The notes under the pieces were generated by a model. That model was not told the origin of the DNA. It saw only the letters and a list, made by a program, of their open reading frames with translations, and ran no database searches. A stretch of 64,000 bases of DNA from Desulfovibrio mangrovi (lineage in GTDB: Bacteria > Desulfobacterota > Desulfovibrionia > Desulfovibrionales > Desulfovibrionaceae): positions 1,798,001 through 1,862,000 of the forward strand of contig NZ_CP104208.1 of NCBI RefSeq assembly GCF_026230175.1. The letters are read 5' to 3'. Numbering within the stretch: the first letter of the stretch is position 1; the number at the start of each line of letters is the position of its first letter. This document shows, in pieces, positions 7,894-10,973 of this stretch. The translations under genes were made by a program, and so were the position numbers.

Positions 7894-8068
7894 CCCCTTT
7901 CACACACACCTCCCCAGCCTGCAAACCTTGCATCGCCAGCCCCGATGGGGTAGCTATTTTGCCTGTGTCGCGCGCTTCTCCGAACTCCCGGACATCGCCG
8001 GACATCACAGGACAGCGCCCGACAACGACGACAAAAACTTACTGGAAAGACAGGAAAAAGGAGCCCCC

Positions 8069-8584
8069 ATGAGCGCAGAAGCCGTACTGACAGCTATCAA
8101 GGAGCGGCGCAGCATTCGCAAGTATACTGCTGAGCCGGTAGACGATGAAGCCGTTCGTGCCATTCTGGAGGCCGGACGATGGGCCCCCAGCGGGATGAAC
8201 AACCAGCCTTTCCGCTTTCTCGTGCTGCGCAAGGACGATCCCCGTTTCGAGACCCTTTCCGGCCTGACCAAATACACACACATCGTGAAGAGCTGTCCGG
8301 TAATGATCGGACTGTTCCTCGACAAGAAGGCCACCTATCACGAACACAAGGACCACCAGTCCGCAGGCGCCTGCGTCCAAAACATGATGCTGGCCGCTCA
8401 CGCGCTGGGACTGGGCACCGTATGGCTGGGCCAGATGATGAACAACGCCCCGCAGGTTCTGGAAGCCCTGAGCCTTTCGCCGGACGACTATGAGTTCATT
8501 ACGGTCATTACCATAGGCCACCCTGCGGAAGCGGGCAAAGCGAACCGCCACCCTCTTGATCACTACATGCTGGAGACATTCTGA
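8069..8584 (+). CDS. Nitroreductase-family protein
   Basis: The 171-residue protein has the FMN-binding nitroreductase start IKERRSIRKYTAEPVDDEAV, then GRWAPSGMNNQPFRF and the C-terminal GLGTVWLGQMMNN and ITIGHPAE. Such enzymes use FMN and NAD(P)H to reduce nitro, quinone or related substrates in the cytoplasm. The frame is open from 7928, but the ATG at 8069 has AAGGAG at the right distance and gives the usual N terminus. Its TGA overlaps the ATG of the downstream MBL-fold gene (TGATG), so the two form an operon. The specific substrate is unknown. Confidence 0.9.
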   Translation: MSAEAVLTAIKERRSIRKYTAEPVDDEAVRAILEAGRWAPSGMNNQPFRFLVLRKDDPRFETLSGLTKYTHIVKSCPVMIGLFLDKKATYHEHKDHQSAGACVQNMMLAAHALGLGTVWLGQMMNNAPQVLEALSLSPDDYEFITVITIGHPAEAGKANRHPLDHYMLETF

Positions 8585-9210
8585 TGCAGGTCAAAACCTT
8601 TCCCCTCGGCCCTCTGGACACCAACTGCCACCTCGCATGGCATGACGGCCTTGCAGTTGCTGTCGATCCCGGCGGAGATCCTGCCCGAGTGGTGACCTTT
8701 CTCGAGAAGAACAACCTCAAACTCACCCACATTCTGAACACGCACCTGCACTTTGACCATATTTACGGCAATCAGGCGTTGCAGGAAGCAACCGGCGCTC
8801 CCATCCTTGCCTGCAGCATGGACGCGTACATGCTGGATTCGGAACTGGGCACCGGTGGCATGTGGGGGTTCCCCAAGGTCACTCCCTTTGCCTTTGAAAC
8901 CATAGAAGAAGGCGATCACACGTTCATGGGCCTGCCTTGCAAGGTGCTGCACACCCCCGGTCACTCTCCGGGCAGTCTTTCCTTCTACTTCCCCGATGGG
9001 GGCGTGGTCTTTGTGGGCGACCTGCTGTTCTACCGTTCCATCGGACGCACGGACTTCCCCGGCGGCAGCCTCAACGCACTCAAAGGCTCCGTGACGACCA
9101 AGATTTTCACCCTGCCCAAGGAAACTGTGGTATATTCCGGCCACGGACCGGAAACCGCTGTCGGCGACGAACAGCTGAACAACCCATTTTTCACGGAGTT
9201 TGTAAGGTAA
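8584..9210 (+). CDS. MBL-fold metallo-hydrolase (glyoxalase II-like)
   Basis: The 208-residue protein has the metal-binding motif HTHLHFDH followed by IYGN, then HTPGHSPGS, the bridging aspartate in VFVGDLLFYRSIGRTD and the last histidine in YSGHGPET. All metal ligands of the family are present. It is the short MBL type often annotated as hydroxyacylglutathione hydrolase-like; the real substrate may be another thioester or a persulfide. It is coupled to the nitroreductase upstream and lies six bases before the TusA-like selenoprotein candidate, which fits a sulfur or thiol redox operon. Confidence 0.92.
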   Translation: MQVKTFPLGPLDTNCHLAWHDGLAVAVDPGGDPARVVTFLEKNNLKLTHILNTHLHFDHIYGNQALQEATGAPILACSMDAYMLDSELGTGGMWGFPKVTPFAFETIEEGDHTFMGLPCKVLHTPGHSPGSLSFYFPDGGVVFVGDLLFYRSIGRTDFPGGSLNALKGSVTTKIFTLPKETVVYSGHGPETAVGDEQLNNPFFTEFVR

Positions 9211-9216
9211 TCTGGC

Positions 9217-9477
9217 ATGATACAAACAACTCCTGATCCGATCGGCGTAACGGAACCAATAGACTTGCGGGGCAAATGCTGAGGAGTCAGCCTGGAGATA
9301 AGTTGGTATCTCCGTTTTCACAAAGGAAACTCCATCACCTTTCTGGTCGCGAATGACGCTGCCGGACAAGTTGAGCATGCCCTGCACATAGAAACCGGCT
9401 GGACAGTTTCCATCTCGCCGGAAGCCGACGGATCAGGAGGCCTGCGTGCCGAGGCGACCCGCAAGGTACCGCGCTAG
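9217..9477 (+). CDS. TusA/SirA-like protein with in-frame UGA: probable selenoprotein
   Basis: Read through a TGA at 9280-9282, the frame gives 86 residues. MIQTTPDPIGVTEPIDLRGK leads to Cys21-Sec22, then GVSLEISWYLRFHKGNSITF, LVANDAAGQVEHALHIETGW and TVSISPEADGSGG, ending at TAG (9475-9477). The pattern IDLRGKC(U)...(K)GNSITFLVANDAA matches the TusA fold: D-x-x-G-x-x-C active-site loop, G-E/N-x-(I/L) strand and the A-D-D-P/A turn. The CPxP motif is replaced by CUGV. A perfect hairpin lies directly downstream of the UGA (next entry). AAGGT eight bases before the ATG serves as ribosome-binding site. It lies between an MBL-fold gene and a flavodoxin-like gene. A simple nonsense mutation is the alternative. 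Confidence 0.8.
9283..9314 (+). promoter_or_regulatory. SECIS-like hairpin after the UGA codon
   Basis: GGAGATA (9294-9300) pairs perfectly with TATCTCC (9307-9313), and one further T-G wobble (9293 with 9314) can extend the stem. The loop is AGTTGG. The loop begins 18 bases after the UGA and has a G at its second position. Bacterial SECIS elements are known to need a stem-loop inside the coding region just 3' of the UGA with a G early in the apical loop, so position, size and loop all fit. Confidence 0.75.
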
Positions 9478-9518: not shown

Positions 9519-10175
9519 ATGACGAAACAAGCTTCCCTATCCTCCACAAACGGCATAGACGCCCCCATTGTTGCCATTTCCTGCAGCCCCAGAGCCGGAG
9601 GCAACAGCGACAACGCCTGCAAGCTGTTCATGGAAGGCGTAACCGCCGCAGGCGGTACGGCCCGGATGGTTCTGCTCCGTCATTACGATGTGCACCACTG
9701 TGTTTCCTGCCACCGTTGCGAACGCGACCCCGCCCAGGGCTGCTACCTGAGCGAGAAGGATCAGAGCAACGACCTTTTCCGCATTCTGCTGACAGCTCCG
9801 GTCATCTTCTTTGCGTCTCCCATATACTTCTATCACGTGCCGTCGCACTTCAAGGCGTTCATAGACCGCTGCCAGTGTTTCTGGATGCGGTATCAGGCCG
9901 GAGAATCAAGCATCACAGGCCTGCCGCCAAGAAAGGCTTTCCTTGCCATGATGGGAGCACGACCGCGCGGCGAGAAGCTCTTTGAAGGCAGTGTGCTGAC
10001 CCTGAAGTGCTTCCTGCAGCCTTTCAACTTCACCCTGCAGCAACCGCTCCTGATGTATGGACTGGACGGCCCGCGGGATCTGGTAAACAACGATGACGAC
10101 TGCGAAAACCTCCGCCGCATGGGCATGGACGCCCAGAAAGCCGTTGAGGAATATCTGGCGCAGAACAAAGGCTGA
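9519..10175 (+). CDS. Flavodoxin-like / NADPH-dependent FMN reductase-family protein
   Basis: The 218-residue protein starts with a short leader and then AIVAISCSPRAGGNSDNAC-like text (IVAISCSPRAGGNSDNACK), the phosphate-binding loop of the flavodoxin fold. It continues with HHCVSCHRCERDPAQGC, a cysteine cluster like that of iron-sulfur flavoproteins, and VIFFASPIYFYHVPSHFKAFIDR. It probably carries FMN and moves electrons in the cytoplasm. The ATG at 9519 is preceded by AGGACAGAC. It directly follows the selenoprotein candidate on the same strand and may be its redox partner, though that is only inferred from position. Confidence 0.85.
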   Translation: MTKQASLSSTNGIDAPIVAISCSPRAGGNSDNACKLFMEGVTAAGGTARMVLLRHYDVHHCVSCHRCERDPAQGCYLSEKDQSNDLFRILLTAPVIFFASPIYFYHVPSHFKAFIDRCQCFWMRYQAGESSITGLPPRKAFLAMMGARPRGEKLFEGSVLTLKCFLQPFNFTLQQPLLMYGLDGPRDLVNNDDDCENLRRMGMDAQKAVEEYLAQNKG

Positions 10176-10184
10176 TATCGCCGC

Positions 10185-10973
10185 ATGCCGCACAGCCTGT
10201 TTTCCCGCCTTGCAGATTCGTTGCGCACCTTCGCATACGTTTCCGGACTGAGCACGAAACGTTGCACGGTCTGCGGAACCCCGTATGCGACACCGCATGC
10301 TGCCACGGAATCCGGTGCCCCGGTCCTCCCGGCTATCTGTCCCGAATGCGCAGACACCTTGAAGCCGAGACGCGGGGGTTACTGCAGCCGTTGCGGCCTG
10401 CTCTTCGCTGACGAGACGCTCCCTCCCGCCCCCTGTGCCGCATGTTTGAAGACACCACCGCCATGGGACTCGCTGACCTTTGTGACAGCCTATGACAAGG
10501 AGTGCCGCCACAGCATCCTGCGTTTCAAATTCCACAATGCACTGGAGCTTGGGGCCGTGCTCGGCGAAGTGCTGGCCAGACGCTGCCTTGAGACCGTGCA
10601 GGTTACAGGCAGGCCGGATGCAGTTGTGCCCATTCCGCTGCATCATGACCGCCTGCATGAACGCGGCTACAATCAGACACTGGAACTGGCACGCCCTGTG
10701 GCACGGGCTCTTGGCGTTCCGCTTCTGCACCTGCTTCACCGCACCGCCGCAACCCCGCACCAGATAGGACTTAGCAGGGAACAGCGTCGCAAAAACCTGA
10801 ACAGTGTTTTTAAGGCAGATGCTGAGGTAACGGGAAAAACTGTCCTTCTGGTCGACGACATCATGACCACGGGCGCTACCATTCAGGCAGCCGCGCAAAG
10901 CCTGATCAATGCAGGCACCAAAGCTGTGCATGTGGCCGTTGTTGCCCGCACCCCGGACAGCATTGCCAAATAG
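10185..10973 (+). CDS. comF: ComF-family phosphoribosyltransferase-like protein
   Basis: The 262-residue protein has four CxxC pairs in its N-terminal third (CTVCG, CPEC, CSRCG, CAAC), which look like zinc ribbons. The C-terminal part is a PRTase domain with DAVVPIPLHHDRLHERGYNQ and the PRPP loop VLLVDDIMTTGATI. This is the ComFC/GntX architecture linked to DNA uptake or nucleotide salvage, but the biochemical role is not settled. The start at 10185 gives MPHSLFSRL and has only a weak ribosome-binding site. It follows the flavodoxin-like gene by nine bases. Confidence 0.88.
   Translation: MPHSLFSRLADSLRTFAYVSGLSTKRCTVCGTPYATPHAATESGAPVLPAICPECADTLKPRRGGYCSRCGLLFADETLPPAPCAACLKTPPPWDSLTFVTAYDKECRHSILRFKFHNALELGAVLGEVLARRCLETVQVTGRPDAVVPIPLHHDRLHERGYNQTLELARPVARALGVPLLHLLHRTAATPHQIGLSREQRRKNLNSVFKADAEVTGKTVLLVDDIMTTGATIQAAAQSLINAGTKAVHVAVVARTPDSIAK

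Follow-up and report, generated by a model that had tools for sequence, protein, structure and literature searches.

A highly probable selenoprotein family with a predicted TusA/SirA-like fold and a vicinal Cys-Sec pair in the Desulfovibrionales

An 86-codon frame in the genome of Desulfovibrio mangrovi (3.95 Mb, one contig) is interrupted by a single in-frame TGA, which raises the question of whether this codon ends a short peptide or encodes selenocysteine (Sec) within a longer protein. The window, the whole stretch of 64,000 nucleotides that was analysed, holds this frame at positions 9217-9477 of the plus strand. Reading of the window sequence confirmed what a preliminary description had stated, namely that TGA 9280-9282 is the only internal stop. 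The frame begins with ATG at 9217, 6 bases 3' of the stop codon of a gene for an MBL-fold protein, and ends with TAG at 9475-9477; its read-through product is MIQTTPDPIGVTEPIDLRGKC-U-GVSLEISWYLRFHKGNSITFLVANDAAGQVEHALHIETGWTVSISPEADGSGGLRAEATRKVPR*. The locus comprises the following features.

8069..8584, plus strand: nitroreductase (PF00881), which usually opens the series (scan start 8066; the longest open reading frame starts at 7928).
8584..9210, plus strand: GloB-like MBL-fold hydrolase (PF00753), directly upstream of the selenoprotein gene (domain match, conserved neighbour).
9217..9477, plus strand: putative selenoprotein gene, 86 residues, Sec at position 22 (frame, UGA conservation in homologues).
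9277..9279, plus strand: codon of Cys21, the vicinal partner of Sec22 (Cys in 160/161 distinct sequences).
9280..9282, plus strand: probable Sec-encoding UGA codon in a KCUG motif (UGA in 161/161 distinct homologous sequences).
9294..9313, plus strand: putative SECIS apical hairpin with a 7-bp stem and the 6-base loop AGUUGG (stem-length control, paired-site covariation).
9519..10175, plus strand: NADPH-dependent FMN reductase or flavodoxin-like protein with a Cys cluster, HCVSCHRCERDPAQGC (domain match, conserved neighbour).
10185..10973, plus strand: ComF-like phosphoribosyltransferase (PF00156), the usual next gene (domain match, conserved neighbour), which we presume to be ComF and call by that name below.

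The hairpin of a single sequence is not enough to answer this question; what settles the observation is that the UGA is retained throughout the homologues compared. When 288 genomes of the window's GTDB family were searched at the protein level, 126 gave a match, and all 126 carry the in-frame TGA. An order-wide profile search matched 166 of 348 genomes, spread over four GTDB families. In-frame TGA was reported within the match in 164 of these, the UGA site itself being checked separately in 212 loci, and the remaining two hold a Cys ortholog (G688) and only a Cys paralog (G162). In a phylum-wide sample of 395 genomes, our 30-row family alignment matched six, all within the window's GTDB family. 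Two peptide patterns were also run across the genome collection, an approach that detects only sequences bearing one of them. Of the 47 stretches obtained, 27 were confirmed as relatives; these include records named Pseudodesulfovibrio, Nitratidesulfovibrio, Humidesulfovibrio, Salidesulfovibrio, Desulfonatronovibrio and Halodesulfovibrio.

To count residues at the site, 226 loci were scanned, several representing the same genome twice. Duplicates (L050, L057-L059) and one paralog (L056) were left out, and dropping the 12 Cys-paralog loci and two copies of the G688 Cys ortholog gave 212 loci with 161 distinct 90-base stretches. Position 22 is UGA, in the same place, in all 161. Asp at -6 and Leu at +10 are likewise invariant (161/161 each), while the residue at +1 is Gly in 143, His in 13, Arg in 4 and Ala in 1. 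Cys stands at -1 in 160; L115 (G148) is the sole distinct copy without Cys21 and has Gly there with the UGA kept. Position 22 is thus occupied by Sec, or by Cys in one genome and one paralog group, and the unrelated residues that the preliminary description had named as evidence against Sec do not occur.

The region downstream of the UGA, previously described as clearly coding, has the properties expected of such a region. The frame remains open for at least 57 codons in 160 of the 161 distinct sequences and for 36 in one, and differences behind the hairpin are in excess at third codon positions (2104, 1934 and 5061 at positions 1, 2 and 3 across 511 pairs). Codon differences there amount to 3701 synonymous versus 3126 nonsynonymous in the pairs compared, and on this comparison the region is coding but fast-evolving. 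A true stop, with a 21-residue peptide as product or leader and a relic or second gene downstream, is ruled out by these open frames and this codon-position pattern to the point of being extremely improbable, even though UGA also ends ordinary genes here (the nitroreductase at 8582-8584) and the window hairpin taken alone reaches only z -1.73. Also against a true stop, the sole non-UGA ortholog found, that of G688, is sense-coded in a genome without SelB and tRNA-Sec matches.

The G688 ortholog has CPC in place of CU, with a one-residue insertion and no stop. Its surroundings match those in the window, with the MBL gene on one side, the flavoprotein gene on the other and ComF beyond the latter. 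In this genome we found no match to tRNA-Sec and no SelB over the cut-off, an outcome that could reflect a gap, as the assembly is only 85% complete. Its congeners G686 and G687 have the UGA, tRNA-Sec and SelB. A switch from Sec to Cys in a genome without matches to the Sec machinery amounts to a natural experiment.

Decoding of the UGA as Sec would depend on the cell's Sec machinery, and the preliminary description had proposed a search for selA, selB, selC and selD. All four are present in the D. mangrovi genome over their curated cut-offs: tRNA-Sec (selC) with 78.6 bits against a cut-off of 47, SelB with 364 bits, SelA with 616 bits, and SelD. The selD gene (L018, G000:C1:1381215-1382147) has one in-frame TGA of its own, and SelD itself is probably a selenoprotein here, as is known from other organisms. 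Across the order, a tRNA-Sec match was obtained in 158 of the 164 UGA-bearing genomes, and the six without one (G024, G154, G164, G242, G684 and G714) are all 75-84% complete. As 293 of the 348 genomes of the order give a tRNA-Sec match in any case, the association of tRNA-Sec with the UGA is weak evidence by itself.

The second element of decoding would be a SECIS hairpin. The 7-bp stem, AGTTGG loop and early loop G reported earlier are all present: GGAGATA-AGTTGG-TATCTCC spans 9294-9313, 11 bases from the UGA, and G is the second base of the six-base loop. Folded alone, the hairpin reaches -12.3 kcal/mol, and 7 of 200 shuffles are equally good; comparative tests were used instead, as this single-sequence result (z -1.73) is only modest. 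The rules for bacterial elements given in a 2026 review (PMC13188914) specify a loop of 3-9 nt, a stem of 4-16 bp, G as the first or second loop base, a distance of 16-37 nt from the UGA and an MFE of at most -7.5. With its loop AGUUGG at 18 nt from the UGA the window conforms, as do all 161 distinct sequences in our own implementation of the rules, but the same holds for 114 of 161 stretches taken sixty bases downstream and for 143 of 161 shuffled stretches. The SECIS prediction that had been suggested therefore comes out positive while saying little by itself: the rules are permissive, and support comes instead from the length of the stem, the choice of codons and the covariation of paired sites.

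A stem of at least six pairs directly 3' of the UGA occurs in 149 of 161 sequences versus 43 of 161 in the control shifted by sixty bases. In the window's own register, at least 6 of 7 pairs form in 143 distinct sequences; the other 18, of which 13 have His at +1, fold otherwise by RNAfold, with four-base loops whose place varies. Codon choice at the hairpin departs from that elsewhere in the same genes, with ATA used for Ile at +6 in 40 of 47 cases versus 55 of 275, and GTA used for Val in 62 of 97 versus 52 of 765. Tyr codons are unbiased as such (TAT in 65/110 versus 74/134), and their choice follows the pairing partner: where stem site 19 is A, site 30 is T in 47 sequences and C in none, and where site 19 is G, site 30 is T in 38 and C in 69. 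At the outer stem pair 150 sequences have G-C; six, in which Gly has taken the place of Arg, have C-G or U-G and may go back to one event. The Fisher tests on paired sites and codons count kin as independent, which related sequences are not, so that their p-values overstate the significance. Judged from these alignments, the hairpin behind the UGA is conserved and constrains synonymous codons. Members of GTDB family f109 (L229-L236, L238-L243) have CUH for CUG and a four-base-loop hairpin with pairing unlike that of the window.

We conclude that the gene at 9217-9477 almost certainly encodes a selenoprotein, with UGA 9280-9282 decoded as Sec by SelB and tRNA-Sec under the direction of the hairpin at 9294-9313, as the proposed mechanism would have it. 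The preliminary description's reading of the frame is thereby supported, and none of the tests run that could have counted against it did so.

What kind of protein the gene encodes is best approached through a second group of sequences. Some of the same genomes hold a Cys paralog, a clear homologue of the family (hhalign probability 98.5) with Cys at the Sec column, for example in DLRxVCCGLVP. It differs in having no UGA, in its CGLVP-type motif, in residue 21, which is C, V, M, T or K, and in its location elsewhere in the genome. In the sample of 395 genomes of the phylum, the paralog profile matched five, which are two true paralogs and three UGA genes. Four members scanned gave no credible Pfam match. 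This Cys-only group (L056, L114, L143-L152) occurs in several genera of the order, often ends near NPLNL or LDTLDY, and could represent a separate TusA-like family so far undescribed.

The preliminary description had assigned the selenoprotein a TusA-like fold. An AlphaFold run with the 30-row alignment (A1), in which Cys stood for Sec at position 22, gave a beta-alpha-beta-alpha-beta-beta model with a mean pLDDT of 87.5, and residue 22 is placed between a predicted strand (15-17) and a predicted helix (24-34). In a Foldseek search of the PDB, the best match was the SirA-like 3hz7 (probability 1.00, E 0.015), with E. coli TusA (3lvj_C, 0.97) at rank 3 and 8k1r_A, from a YeeE-YeeD complex, at rank 8 (0.99); every E-value exceeded 0.001, and Alba-type folds score too. 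A single-domain protein with a TusA/SirA-like fold is thus predicted. At the sequence level, the PF01206 profile matched 0 of 30 family members at E up to 5, which rules out membership in PF01206 by sequence, and a sequence search of the PDB gave a chance-level match only (E 0.37). Alignment of 160 family sequences with 18 TusA domains by hhalign gave a probability of 18 and a score of 20.0, where 30 column shuffles reached at most 14.6, and covers only the part behind the loop, missing the loop itself. The paralog aligned with TusA at a probability of 55 and a score of 26.0 versus 15.7 for shuffles, with its Cys at the CP motif of TusA. The TusA-like assignment is therefore upheld by AlphaFold, by Foldseek and weakly by sequence, but not by the PF01206 profile, and we regard homology of the family to TusA as probable.

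These alignments also bear on the active-site loop, in which the UGA had been placed directly after a Cys. Its location in the loop before the first helix is retained in the model, and Sec itself, not the preceding Cys, appears to take the catalytic Cys site. As the paralog Cys falls on both the Sec column and the CP motif of TusA, Sec22 most likely replaces the TusA catalytic Cys, and Cys21 would be an addition. The CPxP motif is defining for TusA/SirA; in the window the corresponding stretch is KCUGVS, with Sec at the Cys site and the prolines gone, in agreement with the earlier remark that this motif is lost. TusA/SirA proteins (PF01206, including YeeD/TsuB and the N-domain of YedF) thus share with the family the predicted fold and a reactive chalcogen residue before the first helix, whereas they have Cys in place of Sec, lack a vicinal Cys and carry CPxP where the family has (U/C)Gxx. 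The sole PF01206 match in the D. mangrovi genome is one domain in a 224-codon frame, which we presume may be YedF-like.

Further information on function may come from the neighbouring genes, which were counted among the 161 distinct loci wherever the flank sufficed. The flavoprotein gene is next in 135 of 159 loci and ComF follows in 128 of 152; of 156 loci, 116 have the MBL gene no more than 1 kb upstream and 89 have the nitroreductase no more than 1.7 kb upstream, both being slightly farther off in several further loci. The series of nitroreductase, MBL, selenoprotein and flavodoxin genes pointed out in the preliminary description is hence real and widely kept, but not universal. By the same test the flavoprotein is absent as a neighbour in 24 of 159 loci, so the operon does not fix the function. 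Additionally, six loci read in other genera (g17, g23, g39 and others) have different neighbours, which argues that the protein is independent of the nitroreductase-MBL-flavoprotein operon. At L055 (g17), the gene adjoins a predicted membrane protein, presumably UPF0016/GDT1-like, and at L178 (g39) another gene is nearby, which we take to be MoeA-like. The nearest PDB entries to the MBL protein of the window are 7ev5, 2zwr and 7l0b (named hydroxyacylglutathione hydrolase), with the persulfide dioxygenase ETHE1 (4chl) lower among the matches.

We propose the following mechanism. Sec22, in the loop before the first helix at the place of the TusA catalytic Cys, would attack an oxidised chalcogen as selenolate, either persulfide or polysulfide sulfur or a disulfide. 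Cys21, the likely resolving partner, would then displace sulfide or thiol from the adduct and form a Cys-Sec selenenylsulfide. Regeneration of the pair would fall to a reductant of the cell, for which the flavoprotein of the adjacent gene is a possible candidate. We infer Sec incorporation itself, the substrate, the redox partner and any connection with the MBL hydrolase. That the Cys-Sec pair serves redox chemistry on sulfur or selenium species has, in our judgement, an even chance of being correct. More tentatively, and somewhat short of that, this could be the first case of the TusA sulfur-carrier fold in a selenoprotein. The adjacent Cys would resolve a persulfide (Se-S) formed on Sec, and the protein, together with the MBL hydrolase and the flavoprotein, would serve the Desulfovibrionales as a dedicated selenium-based reductase or relay of sulfane sulfur. 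Taken as a whole, a selenoprotein family of sulfate reducers, predicted to be TusA/SirA-like and recorded from four or more GTDB families within a single order, is highly likely; the mechanism by itself stands at the even chance just given. A vicinal Cys-Sec pair followed by Gly is shared with the GCUG tail of mammalian thioredoxin reductase, which is the C-terminal tail of a flavoprotein and not an internal TusA-like loop.

The protein could instead be a Sec-based carrier of sulfur or selenium, with a persulfide-type group on Sec passed to a partner and Cys21 tuning or releasing it, hence a transfer protein and not a reductase. The TusA-like predicted fold and the position of Sec at the TusA Cys, as deduced through the paralog, are consistent with such a role, as is the finding that the only PF01206 match of the genome is the single domain in the 224-codon frame. 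Against it stand the loss of the CPxP prolines and the retention of Cys21, which a pure carrier would not obviously need, in 160 of 161 sequences; nor is any acceptor or desulfurase found among the four usual neighbours. On balance we consider this role unlikely, though it deserves to be kept in mind beside the redox mechanism.

That the vicinal Cys-Sec pair is a metal or metalloid ligand, binding for example Hg or As, appears more doubtful still; some Sao/Hgc selenoproteins with a CU motif may bind soft metals in this way. The CPC of the G688 Cys ortholog would fit such a ligand, but the four usual neighbours include no gene for metal resistance or transport, and TusA-type folds are not known to act as metal carriers. 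CU-motif families listed in the available part of PMC13188914 include SaoL and HgcA, which are organomercury-related by name. These and the other CU-motif selenoproteins there (SaoC, MbdU, KCU-star and others) share the Cys-Sec dipeptide with our family and differ, judged by name, in having other domains (PMC13188914). We retain the redox mechanism for the Cys-Sec pair as the preferred reading.

The family itself appears to be new. It has no match in the Pfam or NCBIfam models searched: with NCBIfam 20.0, 30 members gave no selenoprotein model at E up to 5, only two chance-level matches to other models, which rules out a known NCBIfam selenoprotein family. The KCU-star selenoprotein (NF033934, DUF466), whose C-terminal K-C-U we take from the family's name, was rejected on the same absence of a model match and on the at least 57 residues that follow Sec in 160 of 161 sequences (36 in one). 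In the portions of the literature available, a 2026 table of 119 selenoprotein families lists none such, and SirA and TusA are absent from the accompanying text (PMC13188914); eight selenoproteins are listed for Desulfovibrio vulgaris, none of them this family by name (PMC1794560), and SirA and TusA are unmentioned in PMC2398784, PMC9312934 and PMC1088965. A SirA-like protein linked to SelD, as described in the accessible part of PMC2432076, shares the SirA-type domain and a link to selenium, but stands beside selD in organisms without a Sec pathway and has two domains, one of them DsrE-like. Given this partial literature search, the family is only apparently new, and an earlier mention in print is possible.

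Prediction methods may have passed over the family as well. In the available text on deep-Sep, no new selenoprotein is given for Desulfomicrobium orale and Salidesulfovibrio onnuriiensis, and the authors note that selenoproteins without Cys homologues may escape detection (PMC12013277). G671 and G228, which we take as those two species, both hold the family, and deep-Sep probably missed it in each unless it was counted there among the known ones. Cys orthologs of the family are nearly absent, and it can therefore escape methods relying on Cys homologues, which points to a blind spot of selenoprotein detection of this kind. Although roughly one in two of the 348 genomes searched in the order carries it, the family has no match in Pfam or NCBIfam and is missing from the 2026 inventory table, and Sec at the apparent TusA Cys position makes selenium chemistry in a sulfur-carrier fold testable in sulfate reducers. 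The copy in G228 (L222) has an in-frame TAA beyond the UGA and may be decaying.
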